64,000 nt of DNA, from positions 124,001 through 188,000 of the forward strand of contig NZ_JAPEIQ010000028.1 of the NCBI RefSeq assembly GCF_026041215.1, in the 5' to 3' direction. Shown here one piece after another: positions 3,018 through 36,970 of this stretch (positions are counted from its first letter, which is position 1; every line of letters begins with the position of its first letter). The position numbers were made by a program, and so were the translations under genes. The stretch comes from Hoyosella sp. YIM 151337. Its GTDB lineage: Bacteria; Actinomycetota; Actinomycetes; Mycobacteriales; Mycobacteriaceae. Under the pieces are notes generated by a model. That model was not told where the DNA came from. It saw only the letters and a program-made list of their open reading frames with translations, and searched no databases.

Positions 3018-3832
3018 GCGTACGCGGCAACTGGGTAACCGTGTGCGGGCAGCAAATCCGAGTCGAGGTCCGTTCAGCTGACGATGCGCACCAAGACCCG
3101 CCGCTCGTGCTGTGCAACGGCATCGGTGCAAGCTTGGAGACCTTCGACCCACTGGTAGCAGGGCTCGATTCGCGGCGCACGGTAGTCAGTTTCGACGTGC
3201 CCGGGGCGGGGCTCTCGCCCGCCCCCCGCCTCCCGTACACGTTTCCCATCCTCGCGCTCACTATTGCGCGGATGCTCACCCGACTGGGGTATCCCCGTTT
3301 TGATGTCCTCGGATACTCATGGGGCGGCGCGCTCGCACAGCAGTTGGCGTTTCAGTTTCCGCACCGCTGTGCTCGGGTGATACTGATGTGCACGGCAACT
3401 GGCATGCTGATGGTTCCCGCGAGACCAAAAGTGCTGTGGCACATGTCAACTCCGCGCCGCTACCGCGACCCTGACTATGCGGCGCAGGTTGCGCCGGTGA
3501 TTTACGGCGGAGCAGCCCGGCGGGACCTCGACGGGGTGCGCGAAGTGTTCGGCACGGTCGAAACCCGTGCGAGCCGCCGCGGCTACGCCTATCAGCTTCT
3601 CGCTGGTGCCGGCTGGACCAGCCTCCCGTTCTTGCCCTTGATTCGGCAGCCGGTCCTCGTCCTTGCCGGGGATGACGACCCCATCATTCCACTCGTCAAC
3701 GCACGGACAATGCGGCGCTTGCTGCCGCACGCAGAACTCTCCGTGTTTCCCGGAGGACACATCGATCCCCTCCTGCGCAGCGACGACATCGGTTCGCGCA
3801 TAGAGACCTTCCTTAATCACGAAAGGCACTGA
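3014..3832 (+). CDS. phaZ: Alpha/beta hydrolase, probable intracellular PHA depolymerase
   Basis: 272-residue alpha/beta hydrolase with nucleophile elbow GYSWGG (Ser102), an acidic residue in AGDDDPIIP and the C-terminal His in PGGHIDPL. The oxyanion region LCNGIGAS and the overall pattern resemble the intracellular medium-chain PHA depolymerase family, which lies next to phaC in other bacteria. The ATG at 3014 overlaps the phaC stop by 4 bp; the frame is open further upstream, but that extension would lie inside phaC. It ends 2 bp before the acyl-CoA dehydrogenase. The depolymerase assignment rests on family resemblance plus context; a general esterase is the alternative. Confidence 0.78.
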
Positions 3833-3834
3833 CC

Positions 3835-4995
3835 ATGGCAGGCGACCTCAACTTTGACCTCTTCACGCTCCGCGAAGAACACGACGAGCTCCGCTCCGCG
3901 ATCCGTTCACTCTGCGAGAAGGAAATTGCCCCGTATGCGGGAGATGTTGACGAGCACGAGCGGTACCCCGAAGAAGCGCTCAAGGCCTTGACGGCATCGG
4001 GCTTTAACGCGGTGCATGTGCCAGACGAGTATGACGGGCAAGGCGCCGATTCAGTCGCAGCATGCATCGTCGTCGAAGAGGTGGCGCGCGTGTGCGCATC
4101 ATCATCGCTGATACCCGGCGTGAACAAGCTGGGCACCATGGGGCTGATCCTCAACGGAAGCGAAGAATTGAAGAAACAGGTGCTGCCATCAATCGCGTCC
4201 GGTGAAGCGATGGCGTCGTATGCGCTATCCGAGCGCGAAGCCGGCTCAGATCCAGCGTCCATGCGCACCCGCGCCAAGGCTGACGGTGATGACTGGATTC
4301 TGAATGGTTCGAAGTGCTGGATCACTAACGGCGGCAAATCCAGCTGGTACACCGTGATGGCGGTGACGGATGCGGACAAAGGTGCCAACGGAATCTCGGC
4401 GTTTATGGTGCACAAAGACGATGACGGGTTCATCGTCGGTCCGAAGGAAAAGAAGCTCGGCATCAAGGGCTCGCCGACCGCGGAACTGTACTTTGAGAAC
4501 TGCCGCATCCCCGGCGACCGGATCATCGGCGAACCGGGTACCGGTTTCAAAACCGCGCTGGAAACCCTCGACCACACGCGCCCGACGATTGGTGCGCAGG
4601 CGGTGGGAATTGCTCAGGGCGCGCTGGACGCGGCGCTCGCATATGTGAAGGATCGTAAGCAGTTTGGGACGCCGATCAGCGGTTTCCAGGGTGTGCAGTT
4701 CATGCTCGCCGACATGGCGATGAAGCTCGAAGCCGCCCGTTTGATGGTGTACCACTCGGCTGCCCGTGCCGAACGGGGCGAGAAAGGGCTGGCTTTCATC
4801 GCGAGTGCGGCGAAATGCTTCGCATCCGACGTAGCGATGGACGTGACAACCGACGCGGTGCAATTGTTCGGCGGCGCTGGCTACACCCGGGACTTCCCCG
4901 TCGAACGGATGATGCGCGACGCCAAGATCACCCAAATCTACGAAGGCACCAACCAGATCCAGCGCGTCGTCATGGCACGCTCGCTCCTGCGCTAG
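3835..4995 (+). CDS. fadE25: Acyl-CoA dehydrogenase (FadE25-like)
   Basis: 386-residue FAD-dependent acyl-CoA dehydrogenase catalysing alpha,beta-desaturation of acyl-CoA, with electrons passing to ETF. Family signatures are [12 protein letters not shown] and WITNGG in the FAD/substrate region, DRKQFG, and the catalytic-base motif IYEGTNQIQ (Glu370). By recollection it is close to mycobacterial FadE25 along its whole length. It starts 2 bp after the hydrolase and is the last gene of the operon; a large imperfect palindrome follows the stop. Its electron acceptor is presumably encoded by etfAB near 60-61.6 kb. Chain-length preference is unknown. Confidence 0.93.
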
Positions 4996-5002
4996 GCGGC
5001 TT

Positions 5003-5098
5003 CGTCGCCCCCACCCGCGAATCCATCTACGGAGGTCAACGGAAACGGCCGATTTTTGGCAGTTGCAGATGACTTCCGCAGATGGATTTGGGGCGACG
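5003..5098. repeat. Imperfect palindromic repeat, copy A
   Basis: Left arm 5003-5040 and right arm 5069-5098 are imperfect inverted copies. Both contain CGTCGCCCC at the outer edge and AATCCATCT followed by a CGG(A)GTCA-like core inwards. The left core AATCCATCTACGGAGGTCAA followed by CGGAAAC recurs, in inverted orientation, in the repeat at 7655-7721. Copy A sits 7 bp after the fadE25 stop and could act as a 3' stabiliser or terminator, although there is no clean T-run. Sharing an arm with a second locus marks it as a dispersed element rather than a one-off hairpin. Confidence 0.7.
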
Positions 5099-5117
5099 GG
5101 GGTATTGCTCCGGGACC

Positions 5118-5147
5118 GATCGCGACCTATCGTTAAAGTATCGCGAT
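5118..5147. promoter_or_regulatory. Candidate operator/promoter of the padR gene
   Basis: ATCGCGA occurs at 5119-5125 and again at 5140-5146, where it lies in the palindrome ATCGCGAT. A third ATCG falls between them at 5129, giving spacing of about 10.5 bp, that is, one face of the helix. A -10-like hexamer TAAAGT (5134-5139) lies inside the array. PadR proteins often repress their own promoters, so this is a reasonable autoregulatory operator, but no binding data exist here. Confidence 0.45.
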
Positions 5148-5176
5148 TGGTTGAGTATCTGGTCGAGGTGATGGCG

Positions 5177-5773
5177 ATGCATGGTCGGCATTGTGGACCG
5201 CAAGGTTTCGGACCGTGGTTTATGTTCGGCGGTGGGCACCGCTCGTGGGGCGAGCCGGGCCGGGGCCACGGATCGTGGGGAGCCCCGCCATGGGCTCGCG
5301 GGCCAAAGGCACGGCGCGGCGATGTTCGGGCCGCGATTCTCGCTGTCCTGGCTGATCAGCCGTTGAACGGCTATCAAATCATTCAGGAGATTGCCGACCG
5401 TAGCGGCGGCATGTGGAAACCCAGTCCCGGCTCGGTGTACCCAACACTTCAGCAACTCGAGGACGAAGGGCTGGTCGTCGCCAAGGAGGACGGTGGCCGA
5501 AAAGTGTATCGACTGACTGCAGAAGGTGAGGAGTATGTCGAGACTAACTCCAGCGAGGTCGGTGCGCCGTTTGAGGCGATGTCATCGTCTGCTGCCGGAG
5601 GTGACGATCTCAAGTTGCAGCCGCTGATCGGCCAGACAGCCGCGGCGCTTTGGCAGGTGCTGGCTACGGGGACGCCGGACCAGCAGGCTCGTGCGCGCCA
5701 AGTGCTGGCCGACACGAGGCGGAAGCTTTACGGCATCCTCGCCGACGGAGATGATGCGACCGGGGAGGCGTGA
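5177..5773 (+). CDS. PadR-family transcriptional regulator
   Basis: About 198 residues. A Gly/Trp/His-rich N-terminal stretch (GPWFMFGGGHRSWG) precedes a PadR winged helix: RAAILAVLADQPLNGYQIIQEI, then the PSPGSVYPTLQQLEDEGLV recognition region and RKVYRLTAEGEEYV wing. A C-terminal helical segment fits the dimerisation part. ATG 5177 was chosen because GAGG lies 8 bp upstream; ATG 5171 is possible, and the frame is open to 5063, inside the palindrome. The stop is 2 bp before the ATG of a DUF1707 membrane protein, a common pairing in actinobacteria in which the small membrane protein is the likely target. The ligand is unknown. Confidence 0.88.
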   Translation: MHGRHCGPQGFGPWFMFGGGHRSWGEPGRGHGSWGAPPWARGPKARRGDVRAAILAVLADQPLNGYQIIQEIADRSGGMWKPSPGSVYPTLQQLEDEGLVVAKEDGGRKVYRLTAEGEEYVETNSSEVGAPFEAMSSSAAGGDDLKLQPLIGQTAAALWQVLATGTPDQQARARQVLADTRRKLYGILADGDDATGEA

Positions 5774-5775
5774 CG

Positions 5776-6234
5776 ATGACCGAGGTTGCGCTGCGGGTCG
5801 GTGACGCTGAACGGGAATCCGCAGTTTCTGCGCTTGGGGTGCATCTTGCGGCCGGGCGCATTTCGCTCGAGGAATTCGACGAACGGGCAGGGCGCGCGTG
5901 GGCGGCACAATACAGCGCTGATCTTGCGGACCTCTTCAGCGATTTGCCCCCGCCGCAGGGGTTGGCCGCCGCTCCCCGCTCCCAGTCGCGAGGACGGCAA
6001 CGGCCGAGACGCTCACTCTTCCCGGCCGTGCCGATTGCCATCGCACTCGTTGTCATTCTCGCGAACGCGGCGCCGTGGCTTCTGCTCGCGCTTCTTATGC
6101 TGTGGCTTCTCGGTTCGTTCCACACAGGGCACCCGCTGCGCAGGCAGCGGCGTGCCTCACCGACGCTTCGTGGCCTGCCGACAGGAGCGCACCACCTGGG
6201 CTTATGCAGATTCAGCCAATATGGGCGCGTTTAG
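5776..6234 (+). CDS. DUF1707 (SHOCT-like) membrane protein
   Basis: 152 residues. Residues 3-60 match the DUF1707 pattern (LRVGDAERESAVSALGVHLA, then GRISLEEFDERAGRAWAA and LADLFSDLP). A basic linker (RSQSRGRQRPRRS) and a hydrophobic block of about 38 residues follow, enough for one or two membrane passes. ATG 5776 is preferred over GTG 5770 because GGGGAGG is 7 bp upstream of it. The gene follows padR directly. The last 30 residues (after HPLRRQRR) look unlike a normal family C-terminus and overlap the convergent DUF4262 gene by 33 bp, so the 3' end may be a recent extension. Function unknown. Confidence 0.78.
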   Translation: MTEVALRVGDAERESAVSALGVHLAAGRISLEEFDERAGRAWAAQYSADLADLFSDLPPPQGLAAAPRSQSRGRQRPRRSLFPAVPIAIALVVILANAAPWLLLALLMLWLLGSFHTGHPLRRQRRASPTLRGLPTGAHHLGLCRFSQYGRV

Positions 6235-7581
6235 TACCTCCTCCAGGCCAGGGAGCGCATCGGCGAGTGGGGCGGCAAACTCGCGGACTTGCTGAGTAGT
6301 GAGGCGCGCTCGTTCACACAGCACGGCCGTCAAGCAGCACAGCAGATCGTTGATTGGCTCCGCCATGACTGGTCCGGAAGCTGCGAGTGTAGCCAGGTAC
6401 GAGTCTTCCACTAGCAGGTGCGGGGGCGGGCACGCGCGACGACCGGTCACGGCGAGGCCCCTGAGCAGTGCGACCGTCGCGGACTCACACTGACTGTCCC
6501 AGGCCTTCAGCAGAAGGTGCGCAGATTCGGCATCGATGCGCTCAACGAGATCCCTCACCACGCTGATCACATGTGCTGGGGCACGCCATCGGTCGTCTGT
6601 GATGAATAAGGGCCTCCCCGCCGCCGCATTCCACGGGCCAAACGCCGCGAGCGTCGTATCGTCGTCAAGCCGATCGGCCACGGTTGCTGCGACCAACATG
6701 GCTGAGATAGCTTGCGTCAGCTGCCTCGATGCCCCGTGCCATGTCGTTGGGTCATCGAACAGGCCGGCTCGCTTGAGAGTTCGCTGCCACAAACGCGGGC
6801 GTTCGTGGAGTGCGCCCACTAATTGATTCGCCAGGTGCTCGGCGTTCCACGCGGCGGGCATCCGGCTCACCAACCGCGCTTGTGTGTAGGACACCCCCAG
6901 CACCAGCTTCGGCCCAAAGCAGGTGTCCGCGTCGATGCTTGCGATGAGCAGTGCAGCCAGTTCTTCCGGCGAGGCCTTGGCTACGGCATAGGCGTAGGCG
7001 CGAACCAGGGGCGTCATTGGCCCGAATTCACCAGTGTGCGAGAACGAGTCGCGCTTTTCCGGCCTGCGAACGCTCATGATGCTGCGGCGGTTCGGGGGCA
7101 CCGCCGACAGTACGCACGCCACTTCGCCGCGCCACCGTGGCAATTCGCTTCGTGGGAGATCCGCAAGCGGAGACGGAGCAGCGCTGACAAGGGTCGCCTC
7201 GAACGGGATGACCCAGCTTCCGGGATCGACGCCATACGCCTCGACCTCGTACGGGTCTACCGGCGCGCCGGGCGTGAACACCACTGTGGTTGCACCCGCG
7301 TCGAAACTCTCGCTGATGGGTTGGCCTACAACGAGTTTGCCCTCGATCAAGCTCCGCGCGAAGCGGTTGAGCTGTGCCGTACAGTCCCTCGCACTGAAAT
7401 ACCATGGCGCTTCGCATGGCTCCTGTTCTGGAGCCGCGCGCATAAACAGTTCAGGATGCCCAGACTGTGCCAGCCCGACCGTATACGCGAATGCCCCGTC
7501 ATGGCGGTCGGGGTCATACACATACTGCACAGCCCAGCAAACTTCATTCTCAACGCCCCCACAACCCGAATCTTCGAACAT
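6202..7581 (-). CDS. DUF4262 protein with unassigned C-terminal half
   Basis: 459 residues. The N-terminal 130 or so residues resemble DUF4262 (DGAFAYTVGLAQSGHPELFM, then LIEGKLVVGQPI and ATTVVFTPGAPVDPYEVEAYG). The remaining roughly 300 residues are Ala/Leu-rich and mostly helical in appearance, and I recognise no domain there. The start is set by a strong GAGGAGGGG 5 bp upstream of the ATG at 7581; a longer open frame to 7707 would run into the palindrome. Monocistronic and convergent with the DUF1707 gene. No catalytic motif is obvious, so no function is assigned. Confidence 0.7.
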   Translation of the reverse strand: MFEDSGCGGVENEVCWAVQYVYDPDRHDGAFAYTVGLAQSGHPELFMRAAPEQEPCEAPWYFSARDCTAQLNRFARSLIEGKLVVGQPISESFDAGATTVVFTPGAPVDPYEVEAYGVDPGSWVIPFEATLVSAAPSPLADLPRSELPRWRGEVACVLSAVPPNRRSIMSVRRPEKRDSFSHTGEFGPMTPLVRAYAYAVAKASPEELAALLIASIDADTCFGPKLVLGVSYTQARLVSRMPAAWNAEHLANQLVGALHERPRLWQRTLKRAGLFDDPTTWHGASRQLTQAISAMLVAATVADRLDDDTTLAAFGPWNAAAGRPLFITDDRWRAPAHVISVVRDLVERIDAESAHLLLKAWDSQCESATVALLRGLAVTGRRACPPPHLLVEDSYLATLAASGPVMAEPINDLLCCLTAVLCERARLTTQQVREFAAPLADALPGLEEVLNAPILAESA

Positions 7582-7654
7582 GTGTTCCCCTCCTCGTTGT
7601 ATGCCGAAGAGTAGCGGAACCGTACGACAATTGCCGAGGCCCGGACGAAACCGA

Positions 7655-7721
7655 CTATGGGGGTCAACGAAAACCTGGTTTTCACCGGTGTTTCCGTTGA
7701 CCCCCATAGATGGATTTGGGG
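7655..7721. repeat. Near-perfect hairpin, copy B of the palindromic repeat
   Basis: Arms CTATGGGGGTCAACGAAAAC (7655-7674) and GTTTCCGTTGACCCCCATAG (7690-7709) pair over 20 bp with one mismatch around a 15-nt loop. The right arm plus its flank ATGGATTTGGGG (to 7721) is an inverted match to the left core of copy A at 5020-5046. It lies between the helicase stop and the DUF4262 start, both read leftward, so it may terminate or protect the helicase transcript. Confidence 0.75.
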
Positions 7722-7736
7722 AAGGAAGGTGGCCGC

Positions 7737-9080
7737 TTAGGCGCTTCGCACAGCCCTCCGGTGCGGCCGCCCCGGGCGCTTCGAAGAACCGGCTGTACGG
7801 CTCCGGGAGGCACTGGCGCGAGGTGCGCGAGCCCCGTTTCCACGGCTGTTAAGACCCGCGCGTTCCTGCTGGGGCGCAGGCGCGACGTGCGGGGCGACCT
7901 CACCGACGAGTTCGGCGACCGACGCGTCGCGCGCGGAGTTGAGCTTCTGCGGGACCGCTGAAATATCTGCTGCGCGAAGCACCTTCGTGAGATCCCGGCG
8001 CTGATCGGGCAGCACGATTGTGACTACGTCACCAGCGCGCCCGGCGCGCGCGGTGCGTCCCGAACGGTGCAGGTAGGCTTTGTGCTCCGTCGGAGGATCC
8101 ACGTGCACCACGAGTTCAACGTGGTCGACGTGCACGCCGCGCGCGGCTACGTCCGTCGCTACGAGGACCCGAACGCTGCCTTCGCCGAAGGCAGCGAGGT
8201 TGCGGTCACGCTGCGCCTGAGAAAGGTTGCCGTGCAGATCAACCGCCGGGATACCCTCAACAGTGAGTTGCTTTGCGAGTCGCTTAGCGTGGTGCTTGGT
8301 GCGCATGAAAAGGATGCGGCGCCCGGTCCCCGACGCGAGCGTGCGCACGAGTTCCTTCTTATGGTCGGGCGTCGAGACTTCCAGGATGTGGTGCGACATC
8401 GCGGGAACCGGGGATGTCGCTTCGTCAATCGAGTGCCGCGTCGGGTTATTCAGGAAGCGAGTGACGAGCTTATCCACGCCATTGTCTAGGGTCGCAGAGA
8501 ACAGTAACCGCTGACCGCCCCGGGGCGTCGCGGCGAGCAACCTGGTAACCGCGGGCAAGAAGCCGAGGTCGGCCATGTGGTCGGCTTCGTCGAGTACCGC
8601 GATTTCGATGTCATCGAGAGTAACGAAGCCTTGCTTGATGAGGTCTTCGAGGCGTCCGGGGCAGGCCACGACGATGTCCGCGCCAGCCTTCAGTGCGGCC
8701 ACCTGGGAATTCTGCCGGACACCGCCGAAGATGGTCGTTGTCGTGAGACCACATGCCCGGGCAATCGGCGCGAGGACGGCAGCGATTTGGGTAGCGAGTT
8801 CACGCGTGGGGGCGAGCACAAGGCCACGCGGGCGGCCTGGACGGCGCGTACTGCGACCGCCTGTCGCGGCAAGTCGGGCGACAAGCGGGATCGAAAAAGC
8901 CAATGTCTTGCCGGAGCCGGTCTTACCACGGCCGAGCAAGTCACGTCCCGCAAGTGAATCGGGCAGCGTCTCCGCCTGGATCGGGAAGGCTGTGCTTTTG
9001 CCGTCGCGGGCGAGCGCGCCGACGATCGGTGCGGGCACGCCAAGGTCTGAAAATTTCGGTGGAACGGGTGTGGTGGTCAC
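7737..9080 (-). CDS. rhlE: DEAD-box RNA helicase (RhlE-like)
   Basis: 447-residue ATP-dependent RNA helicase. In order: the Q-motif region (PKFSDLGVPAPIVGAL, FPIQAETLP), Walker A GRGKTGSGKT (50-59), PTRELA, DEAD (164-167), SAT in LLFSATL, and in the second RecA domain VLVATDVAARGVHVD and HRSGRTARAG. A short basic tail (SASRSRTAGSSKRPGRPHRR) probably adds RNA affinity. GTG 9080 is chosen because GAAAGG lies 6-9 bp upstream; the frame is open to 9137 without better support. Standalone gene, probably involved in RNA structure remodelling or cold adaptation. Confidence 0.92.
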   Translation of the reverse strand: MTTTPVPPKFSDLGVPAPIVGALARDGKSTAFPIQAETLPDSLAGRDLLGRGKTGSGKTLAFSIPLVARLAATGGRSTRRPGRPRGLVLAPTRELATQIAAVLAPIARACGLTTTTIFGGVRQNSQVAALKAGADIVVACPGRLEDLIKQGFVTLDDIEIAVLDEADHMADLGFLPAVTRLLAATPRGGQRLLFSATLDNGVDKLVTRFLNNPTRHSIDEATSPVPAMSHHILEVSTPDHKKELVRTLASGTGRRILFMRTKHHAKRLAKQLTVEGIPAVDLHGNLSQAQRDRNLAAFGEGSVRVLVATDVAARGVHVDHVELVVHVDPPTEHKAYLHRSGRTARAGRAGDVVTIVLPDQRRDLTKVLRAADISAVPQKLNSARDASVAELVGEVAPHVAPAPQQERAGLNSRGNGARAPRASASRSRTAGSSKRPGRPHRRAVRSA

Positions 9081-9365
9081 GTGGTGCCTTTCAATGGCAT
9101 CGGTCGCCCCGCGCATGCCGATACTAGAGCTATGCAACGCTAGCGGGAGCGGTGAGTGGCGAACACGCCTGTCAGCGCATCCGTTCGCCGCATGAGAGTC
9201 GTCAACCGGGCCACACTGCGAAGGTCACCTGGACGAGAGGAAGCAATCTACGACGCATGCGGCACTCACACTGAGCACCGCTTTCGCACAGAACCCTACC
9301 TGATCACGGATCAGTTTGCCGTTCCGCACGTCACACCGCAGCTGCCGTTATCTCAACAGCACAGT

Positions 9366-10580
9366 TCAGCGCCGCTTTTTCGGTTTCAGCTCGGCCAGCG
9401 CGGTCCGCAGTCCGCGACGGCGGCCGGTCTCTGGGTCGACTGCAACCCAGCCAAGTGCCTTCGCAGCTTTGAACCGCAGCTCAGATGCCGTTTCGGGTGC
9501 GTCATCAGATGTTGCGCGCAGCATGCGGTCGGGCAGTGCGAGTTTCAGGATGGTGCGTTGAGTCAGCAGGAACTGCGTGAGAAGTGGAGCTGTTGTGTAT
9601 GGCAGGTCATATTTGTCGCAGAGCTCTCGCACACGGACCGATATCTCCGCACACCTGTTGCTCGGAAGATCGGGGAACAAGTGATGCTCGATCTGATAGC
9701 ACAGATTGCCGCTCAGGAACGCCATCGCGGGCCCAGCGTTGAAGTTTGCGGTACCGAGCATCTGACGCAGATACCAATGCCCGGGTGACTCGTTCTCTAA
9801 GTCGTCCAAGGCGAACTTCTCGGCACCATCCGGGAAGTGCCCACAAGAAATCACGAGATGCGCCCAAATGTTCCGCACCAGGTTGGCAGTGGCATTCGCC
9901 GCCAGGGTGCGGCGCCACCGGCGCCCGCTCAGAACCGGAAAGAGTACGTAGTCTTTGGCGAGTTGACGCAGCACCTTACGCCGGAAAACGGCGACCTCCG
10001 CGCGATCTGGGTGCTTCGCCGTCTTATCGAAGTACAAGTCATGTAGCGCGATACCCCACTCGAATCCAGCCGCGAGCAAGAGATTCTGAAGCGGCTGAAT
10101 CAGATGGATGGGCTTCCACGGCTGGTCGCGCGTCACCCGCATCACGCCGAACCCCACGTCATCATCGAGGTCGACCACATTCGTGTACTTGTGGTGGGTG
10201 ACGTTGTGCGCACGCTTCCAATGTGAAGCCGGGCCAGCGATATCCCATTCCCACGAAGCCGAGTGAATCTCGGGATCGTTCATCCAGTCCCACTGACCAT
10301 GCAGGACGTTGTGACCGATCTCCATATTCTCGATGATCTTCGCGAGCGCCAGTGCCGCCGTCCCCGCCAGCCAGCCCCCGCGGCCGGAGCTAGCGATCAG
10401 CCAGGCCCGAGCGGACGCGTCGAGGATACGCTGCAATCGGATTGTGCGGATGATGTAGTTCGCATCCGCACCACCAAGAGAATCTTCGACATCGCGACGG
10501 ATCGCATCGAGTTCGTGTCCGAGCGCTTCGATATCAGAATCGCTGAGATGCGCGTACTCAGCAATGTCCGAAATAGCCAT
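9366..10580 (-). CDS. desA3: Membrane acyl-CoA desaturase (DesA3-like)
   Basis: 404-residue integral-membrane, di-iron fatty acid desaturase. The three histidine clusters are present: H90-NVL-H94, H125-NVT-HH130 and QIEHH (296-300), with NMEIGHNVLHGQWDWMNDPEIH closely resembling mycobacterial DesA3, which makes oleoyl-CoA from stearoyl-CoA. The C-terminus ends in basic KPKKRR. No ferredoxin reductase partner is adjacent, unlike the mycobacterial arrangement. The 285 bp between this stop and the helicase start hold no gene that I can support, only the helicase promoter region. Confidence 0.92.
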   Translation of the reverse strand: MAISDIAEYAHLSDSDIEALGHELDAIRRDVEDSLGGADANYIIRTIRLQRILDASARAWLIASSGRGGWLAGTAALALAKIIENMEIGHNVLHGQWDWMNDPEIHSASWEWDIAGPASHWKRAHNVTHHKYTNVVDLDDDVGFGVMRVTRDQPWKPIHLIQPLQNLLLAAGFEWGIALHDLYFDKTAKHPDRAEVAVFRRKVLRQLAKDYVLFPVLSGRRWRRTLAANATANLVRNIWAHLVISCGHFPDGAEKFALDDLENESPGHWYLRQMLGTANFNAGPAMAFLSGNLCYQIEHHLFPDLPSNRCAEISVRVRELCDKYDLPYTTAPLLTQFLLTQRTILKLALPDRMLRATSDDAPETASELRFKAAKALGWVAVDPETGRRRGLRTALAELKPKKRR

Positions 10581-22772: not shown

Positions 22773-22811
22773 ACGAACGGCCCCCACCTCAGCGAGGTGG
22801 GGGCCGTTCGT
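22773..22811. terminator. Perfect 18-bp bidirectional hairpin
   Basis: ACGAACGGCCCCCACCTC (22773-22790), loop AGC, then the exact complement to 22811. It lies 11 bp after the IclR stop and 2 bp beyond the 3' end of tRNA-Glu, so it can end transcription from both sides. It lacks a long T-run. Confidence 0.8.
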
Positions 22812-22813
22812 TG

Positions 22814-22886
22814 TAGCCCCGACGGGATTTGAACCCGCGCTACCGCCTTGAGAGGGCGGCGTCCTAGGCCGCTAGACGACGGGGCC
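22814..22886 (-). tRNA. tRNA-Glu (anticodon CTC)
   Basis: 73-nt cloverleaf read on the minus strand. Acceptor GGCCCCG pairs with CGGGGCT (one G-U at position 1), discriminator A. The anticodon stem CCGCC/GGCGG holds the loop CTCTCAA, anticodon CTC (GAG codons). T-loop TTCGAAT is intact. No CCA is encoded. Downstream of tRNA-Gln in the same direction, close to gltX. Confidence 0.95.
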
Positions 22887-26853: not shown

Positions 26854-26912
26854 GCACGAGAAACGGGACAGGCTCACGGTTAATTGTCGTGAACCTGTCC
26901 CGTTTCTCGTGC
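26854..26912. terminator. Long bidirectional hairpin, MFS gene / leuB
   Basis: GCACGAGAAACGGGACAGG (26854-26872) pairs perfectly with 26894-26912; after one mismatch the stem continues TCACG/CGTGA. It sits between the convergent MFS gene and leuB. Its outer stem closely resembles the hairpin at 36905-36959. Confidence 0.85.
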
Positions 26913-36891: not shown

Positions 36892-36904
36892 CCGCGCCCA
36901 GAAT

Positions 36905-36959
36905 CACGAGAAAAGGGACAAACGCACGAGTAAAACCCGTGCGTTTGTCCCTTTTCGTG
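36905..36959. terminator. Long bidirectional hairpin, ilvD / DoxX gene
   Basis: Left arm 36905-36928 (outer part CACGAGAAAAGGGACAAACG) and right arm 36938-36959 pair over 22 bp with a 2-nt bulge; the loop is 9 nt. It serves the convergent ilvD and doxX genes. The outer stem matches that of the hairpin at 26854-26912 at 14 of about 17 positions. Confidence 0.88.
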
Positions 36960-36970
36960 TGAACGTCAGA

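Follow-up and report, generated by a model that had tools for sequence, protein, structure and literature searches.

The two near-palindromes at 5020–5088 and 7648–7716 of the window (the whole 64,000-nt stretch of Hoyosella sp. YIM 151337 DNA analysed here) are members of a dispersed family of intergenic elements, F1, of which we list 36 full-length copies in the window genome (4.91 Mb), 22 in Hoyosella altamirensis and 34 in H. subflava; counts that may be lower limits, only part of the first-look candidates having been scored. Most copies lie close to a stop codon and, where the same site is compared between two sister species, their sequence boxes are conserved in situ and changes in their arms compensated. 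We read F1 as a static, genus-specific family whose members would act as two-way hairpins at gene 3′ ends, separating transcription units and/or protecting the ends of mRNAs, part of the family predating the split of the three Hoyosella species and now being inherited in place; taken jointly, and judged from sequence, we give this reading a probability of about one half.

Both units are 69 nt in length and carry the same conserved boxes: copy 1 (5020–5088) scores 77.3 bits against our covariance model (E 1.2e-15) and copy 2 (7648–7716), which matches better on the minus strand, 65.7 bits (E 1.2e-12). A preliminary description of this DNA had pointed to a palindrome at 5003–5098 that shares an arm, inverted, with a second locus, each lying just after a stop codon, and in these respects it was accurate. 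The arms of the first palindrome (5015–5050 and 5058–5093, 36 nt) are 78% complementary and those of the second (7648–7674 and 7690–7716, 27 nt) 85%, whilst the arm common to both (5015–5046 and, inverted, 7690–7721; 32 nt) agrees at 88%. The interval 5003–5098 amounts to the 69-nt core of copy 1 together with its C-rich and G-rich shoulders, which we place at 5007–5019 and 5089–5101 respectively. Predicted RNA folds are strong for both copies: −35.4 kcal/mol (z −7.7) for the first and −43.2 kcal/mol (z −9.0) for the second.

An acyl-CoA dehydrogenase gene (3835–4995, plus strand) has its stop codon 24 nt upstream of copy 1, and a gene for a PadR-type regulator (5222–5773, plus strand; start uncertain) follows the element. 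The stop codon of a DEAD-box helicase gene (7737–9116, minus strand) is 20 nt away from copy 2, which lies on the 5′ side of a minus-strand gene with a borderline DUF4262 match (6202–7584), the start of which is uncertain, its longest reading passing through the element. Copy 2 is actually located between two minus-strand genes, and was booked as convergent by the gene caller because the DUF4262-like ORF had been run through it. Elsewhere in the window, an Rfam scan at gathering thresholds returned two tRNAs only. Directly behind a tRNA-Glu gene (22813–22886, minus strand) there is a perfect hairpin at 22773–22811, probably the tRNA-Glu terminator.

The preliminary description had also proposed a dispersed, lineage-specific family, and this is borne out: far from being the only two copies in their genome, the window pair belongs to a set found throughout three genomes of one genus, with no clear copy elsewhere in what was searched. 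Allowing up to three mismatches, the 20-nt core gave 34 matches in the window genome against none for a reversed control which, together with the copies listed, rules out a chance pair of repeats. Twenty-four copies were aligned to build the covariance model, and the model was then used to list copies; a 37th match in the window genome (C5:228954), partial and representing another palindrome, is excluded from all counts. In H. subflava, all 34 copies are on the chromosome contig. Among 58 relatives outside the genus, 57 gave no match at E 0.001 and one gave a single weak match (5.8e-4); among 397 genomes drawn from the order, searched with strict filters and few candidates scored per genome, only the window's own gave a match at E 1e-4. 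Across 80 named loci, the model matched only the Hoyosella locus (NZ_JACHWS010000002.1, H. altamirensis DSM 45258). The exact 69-nt pattern found nothing in a collection of genome contigs, a search that carries no information, most H. altamirensis copies being 68 nt and records near the window's genome perhaps being missing; and, at the sensitivity of such short queries, neither a phage collection (copy 1) nor a plasmid collection (copy 2) returned a match. In searches of open-licence papers, the titles and abstracts listed describe no such family for Hoyosella, and the main text of the H. subflava DQS3-9A1 genome paper contains neither ‘repeat’ nor ‘palindrom’ (PMC3743902). F1 fits a previously undescribed family of a known kind, that of intergenic stem-loop repeats.

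Reading inwards, the consensus comprises a C-rich shoulder (~13 nt), a position that is mostly A/G, the A box AATCCATCT, six variable bases, the B box GTCA, four to five variable bases, the C box AAC and a loop region of 15–16 nt, followed by the mirror image and a G-rich shoulder; copy 1 follows this layout with five bases between B and C and a 15-nt loop region. The shoulders are a bias of composition with hardly any pair-specific covariation: family-wide, C makes up on average 57% of the 13 nt preceding the core at tandem sites, 50% at convergent and 48% at divergent ones, and G 50–52% of the 13 nt that follow it. The arms, on the other hand, covary among copies, with 59 cells changed on both sides against 36.1 in shuffled alignments (0/500 shuffles as high), a figure to be taken with the reservation that kin sequences can beat shuffles without structure, and for which the sister-species comparison given below is the better test. 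Considered position by position, z reaches at least 2 in one of two length classes at 5, 6, 7, 9, 10, 13, 14, 15, 18 and 21, as well as at 26 and 33; the classes used here and for column composition hold 87 of the 92 copies.

Lengths range from 67 to 71 nt overall, with a clear difference between species: 69 nt is found in 33 of 36 window-genome copies and 68 nt in 18 of 22 from H. altamirensis and 23 of 34 from H. subflava. The B–C spacer differs likewise; it measures 5 nt in 65/72 window-genome arms and 4 nt in 40/68 H. subflava and 24/44 H. altamirensis arms, a difference also seen at orthologous sites. Many copies have one arm of each type (9/34 in H. subflava), so the change in length proceeds arm by arm; replacement of one subfamily by another was rejected as its cause on the same ground.

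Gene contexts were assigned with a simple codon-usage gene caller, applied around the 92 copies of the three genomes, and comprise 42 convergent, 37 tandem and 13 divergent sites. In 75 of the 92 the copy lies within 36 nt of a stop codon or overlaps one; the other 17 have no called stop within this distance, some of them through faults in gene calling. As a reference, a 400-kb sample of H. subflava contains 182 gaps of 60 bases or more (92 tandem, 31 convergent and 59 divergent), against which F1 in this species is enriched in convergent gaps (15/34 versus 31/182, p = 0.001) and depleted in divergent ones (4/34 versus 59/182, p = 0.014). At the 31 of 37 tandem sites that are clean, the copy is nearer the upstream stop in 29 and the downstream start in two, with distances from −33 to 36 nt to the former and from −20 to 636 to the latter; these distance lists omit the six tandem and two of the 42 convergent sites (copy 2 among the latter) at which the element is overlapped by a called ORF. 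Intergenic hairpins other than F1 also often lie 10–40 nt behind stops in the stretches sampled. Copies tend to cluster, with 8, 4 and 9 neighbour gaps of less than 3 kb in the three genomes where 0.76, 0.29 and 0.70 are expected; clustered copies often flank one gene on both sides, and close neighbours are no more alike than others (mean 0.725).

Copies are widely shared between species. Counterparts at the matching end of an orthologous gene in another species were found for 22/22 copies from H. altamirensis, 25/34 from H. subflava and 17/36 from the window genome; calls for which one shared neighbouring gene sufficed, and of which one of the 25 in H. subflava rests on a paralogue. The copy 1 site is common to all three species, the acyl-CoA dehydrogenase orthologues of both relatives having an F1 copy at the same end; the gene neighbours differ among all three. 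PadR, DUF1707, DUF4262-like and helicase genes separate the acyl-CoA dehydrogenase gene from a desaturase gene in the window (5100–9380); in H. subflava (C3:3249096-3249212) these four do not stand there and an F1 element sits between dehydrogenase and desaturase; in H. altamirensis the two genes are ~12 kb apart. In a second case, two genes that are convergent and share one F1 element in H. altamirensis (C3:864892) and H. subflava (C3:991897) stand apart from each other in the window genome, where each has an F1 copy of its own at the 3′ end (C38:45082 and C14:255812). Such differences had prompted the idea of a rearrangement hot spot, which was dropped: in a 400-kb comparison, 10/10 evaluable element-flanked gene pairs were still adjacent versus 228/242 others, two further element sites lacking an orthologue of one flanking gene in the stretches compared.

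Twelve of the 34 H. subflava copies have no H. altamirensis partner (the acyl-CoA dehydrogenase paralogue pair not being counted as one), and at seven of these twelve the empty place was aligned. Clear one-armed remnants are seen opposite copies 953964, 2979840 and 4602737 and a weak one opposite 4666626; at 4350250 the element, which is present in the window genome too, is sharply absent from H. altamirensis; and opposite 4447167 and 4600416 the alignments are unreadable. Where presence/absence differences between the two sister species are readable, they have the appearance of deletions. Within any one genome the identity between copies does not exceed 84%, so that there are no recent copies, and flanking direct repeats occur at 12/92 sites, the level of shuffled flanks (12.5), with no consistent excess for repeats of 2–9 nt adjoining the copies or of at least 6 nt within 30 nt of them. 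The ‘MITE-like’ mobility and target duplications envisaged in the preliminary description find no support here, and an active MITE with recent insertions strikes us as most improbable: it would account for dispersed palindromes and for the 19 of 36 window-genome copies without a detected partner in the two relatives, most of which cannot be separated as gain or loss, but it sits badly with the sharing of every H. altamirensis copy, with remnants at lost sites and with the absence of both near-identical copies and flanking repeats. Nine of those 19 were queried; the orthologous place was located in one or both relatives for seven and not found for two. Directly behind the seven located stops there is no F1 copy; at two of them another palindrome occupies this position, and for C19:141087 an F1 copy of H. 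subflava lies ~0.85 kb further on (2788399).

What has happened to the shared copies since the sister species separated can be followed in 22 orthologous H. subflava/H. altamirensis pairs, a 23rd (<70% identity, the acyl-CoA dehydrogenase paralogue) being omitted. Box positions are identical at 347/396 for A, 168/176 for B and 116/132 for C, compared with 219/264 for the six-base spacers, 141/190 for the inner spacers, 266/344 for the loop, 500/660 for the nearest 15 flanking bases and 1607/1980 for bases 16–60, which run into coding sequence; boxes together (631/704) exceed inner spacers, loop and nearest flank (907/1194) with p = 3.5e-14. Of 17 double changes in the outer 19 arm pairs, 12 keep Watson–Crick pairing (shuffled mean 4.5, maximum 11 in 2000). 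Single changes are also common, 31 breaking a pair and 28 making one, and near the loop (positions 20–27) pairing is kept in just 1/10 double changes, i.e. without compensation. Conserved boxes taken together with compensated arms suggest that the hairpin is under selection between the sister species; repair templated by the opposite arm could also yield paired changes, but would not by itself explain conservation of the boxes.

These observations also bear on whether it is double-stranded DNA that is read. By analogy with what has been proposed for enterobacterial BIMEs, a dimeric or multimeric protein (gyrase, a nucleoid protein or another) might bind the symmetric boxes where transcription units end, for which one could cite their dyad symmetry and nearly fixed spacing, the near invariance of GTCA, shoulders that are symmetric in composition and hardly in pairing, and the preference for convergent gaps. 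Against this, the compensated arm changes are better explained by pairing within a strand, or by arm-templated repair, than by a duplex site on its own, and no candidate protein is known, those looked at being of the Y1 transposase family only. We regard a duplex site as a rather unlikely explanation, albeit a serious one.

Resemblance to REPs is closest in position. REPs are outlined in PMC3733652 as extragenic palindromes that tend to lie near 3′ ends, chiefly where the flanking genes are convergent or unidirectional; F1, too, is dispersed, extragenic and located near 3′ ends of convergent or unidirectional genes (75/92 with a stop within 36 nt; 13/92 divergent), and its inverted conserved arms around a variable spacer recall the plan of REPINs as set out in PMC8049555. 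It differs in its unit of 67–71 nt and 22–36 copies, as opposed to 20–40 bp in high copy number, and in showing no sign of current copying. An unpaired GTAG/CGTC end tag was not found in the 92 copies with their flanks or in the column composition of 87, the ends being C-rich, then A/G, then AATCC. Matches to the RAYT family (PF01797) number five in the window genome, one (partial) in H. subflava and none in H. altamirensis, and none of these six comes closer than 20 kb to an F1 site on our list; on this basis, membership of a RAYT-driven REP family was rejected. The ‘REP-like’ label of the preliminary description consequently stands for palindromy and place, and falls for end tag and associated transposase. 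In the text available, PMC3733652 reports none of its tagged superfamilies from Actinobacteria, a word that its main text does not contain, whilst the RepRanger survey gives REP counts for three Actinomycetota, according to PMC12306157.

An unlikely, if likewise serious, alternative is that F1 is the decaying relic of a mobile REPIN-like family, its inverted recognition arms once copied by an ancestral transposase that has since been lost and its 3′ placement reflecting tolerated insertions only. The REPIN-like plan, the one-armed remnants in H. altamirensis and the excess of copies within 3 kb of each other would all suit such an origin, as would the niche shared with REPs; given that this niche is identical (PMC3733652), both relic and duplex site have to be taken seriously. 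Yet a functionless relic would not be expected to conserve its boxes and co-change its arms in place after the sister species had split; H. altamirensis gave no Y1 transposase match and the other two genomes none in the vicinity of the F1 sites listed; copies close to one another show no added similarity; and lone half-sites are few, 14 of 118 pattern matches lying outside F1 sites and 104 within palindromes.

The scarcity of lone half-sites also disfavours DNA-uptake words. Inverted DUS pairs (the Hin-1, Nem-4 and Pam-1 families) are sequence-conserved hairpins that have been suggested to be terminators, as noted in PMC2267715, but DUS are abundant single words, whereas F1 half-boxes occur mostly in palindromes and in tens of copies. 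F1 is otherwise of the kind collected in the same source, namely an intergenic sequence family with one shared predicted stem-loop. The survey took in 40 genomes of 2008 and, in the text available, names no Hoyosella; to it F1 adds orthology, loss and constraint in situ. An integron attC reading was considered and set aside.

In GC-rich bacteria with few T-tract terminators, the way in which genes end is not firmly established. Canonical intrinsic terminators have a T-run after a G+C-rich hairpin, and behind the 37 tandem copies no 8-base window holds 5 T; a terminator scan of 3800–9200 reported three places, where 3.8 would be expected by chance; one of the three is a small stem within the copy 2 loop. 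I-shaped intrinsic terminators have no T-run and consist of a strong hairpin just behind the stop codon. F1 resembles these in its strong hairpin near the stop and its missing T-run, but terminators need no shared sequence, whereas F1 boxes are common to copies across unrelated genes. The labels ‘I-shape’ and ‘L-shape’ are those named in PMC8355165.

Our preferred reading, that of a 3′-end hairpin, would operate as follows. A copy transcribed at the 3′ end of a gene would fold into a strong hairpin whichever strand is read; lacking a T-run and working in both directions, this hairpin may stop transcription, or isolate it, between neighbouring and often convergent genes, and may also guard the end of the mRNA. 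From conservation of the boxes we infer that some factor probably reads their sequence as well as the fold. In favour of this reading are the closeness to stops and the enrichment in convergent gaps, the conserved boxes and compensated arms, the stable folds, the palindromes of other kinds behind the stop at two orthologous places that lack F1, and the convergent setting of most F2 places (see below). Several points stand against it: a pure terminator would not need conserved boxes, ending the adjacent gene is not an obvious job for the 13 divergent copies, 17 of the 92 have no called stop within 36 nt, no T-run follows the hairpin, pairing near the loop is not compensated, and copies get lost, 12 of 34 in H. 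subflava having no H. altamirensis partner. Furthermore, since mobile REPs have the same 3′ placement (PMC3733652), place alone is no proof of termination. If correct, F1 would be an instance of a static REP-like family kept under selection with no transposase at hand; and, with dozens of palindromic 3′ ends of conserved sequence in one genus, some common to several species and others lost naturally, genes that carry the element can be paired with counterparts that lack it.

A second palindrome family, F2, is unrelated to F1 and occupies the same kind of place. The window has two copies, at 26854–26912 and 36904–36962, both in convergent intergenic sites and with arms CACGAGAAACGGGACA. The 23 accepted places in the three genomes, counted in stretches around pattern matches only and including one that is doubtful (C41:85709), divide into 15 convergent, five tandem and three divergent. 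Measured between outer arm ends, F2 is 57 nt long in 12/14 places of the window genome and 58 nt in 9/9 of the relatives; its total length shifts by 1 nt between the same genomes in which the B–C spacer of F1 differs. It is conceivable, although we consider it decidedly doubtful, that Hoyosella has a dedicated system for reading 3′-end sequences, with a trans-acting factor for the boxes of F1 and perhaps for F2, and that the spacing of both shifted genome-wide along with this factor.

Further palindromes were encountered in passing. H. subflava contains a third, as two identical 68-nt copies (C3:2841923-2841990 and 2842928-2842995) separated by ~1 kb, with a called stop codon at distances of 7 and 4 nt. 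A fourth (GTCGTGTGCA.GTTCGTGCA) is present 8 nt behind the stop in both H. altamirensis (C2:575583-575640) and H. subflava (C3:219304-219361), at the place that corresponds to the window-genome F1 copy C3:61841. Our filter retained 34 intergenic hairpins from named loci totalling 862 kb, the majority of these loci belonging to related genera. Genus-specific families of 3′ palindromes may be common in the order, a possibility hinted at by repeated-looking palindromes in Rhodococcoides and Mycolicibacterium: judged by eye, such palindromes recur in two Rhodococcus/Rhodococcoides loci (L057, L060) and two Mycolicibacterium loci (L075, L084), where they lie mostly behind stops, for example CGTGAATGGTCCATTCACG and CGGAATAGCATTCC.
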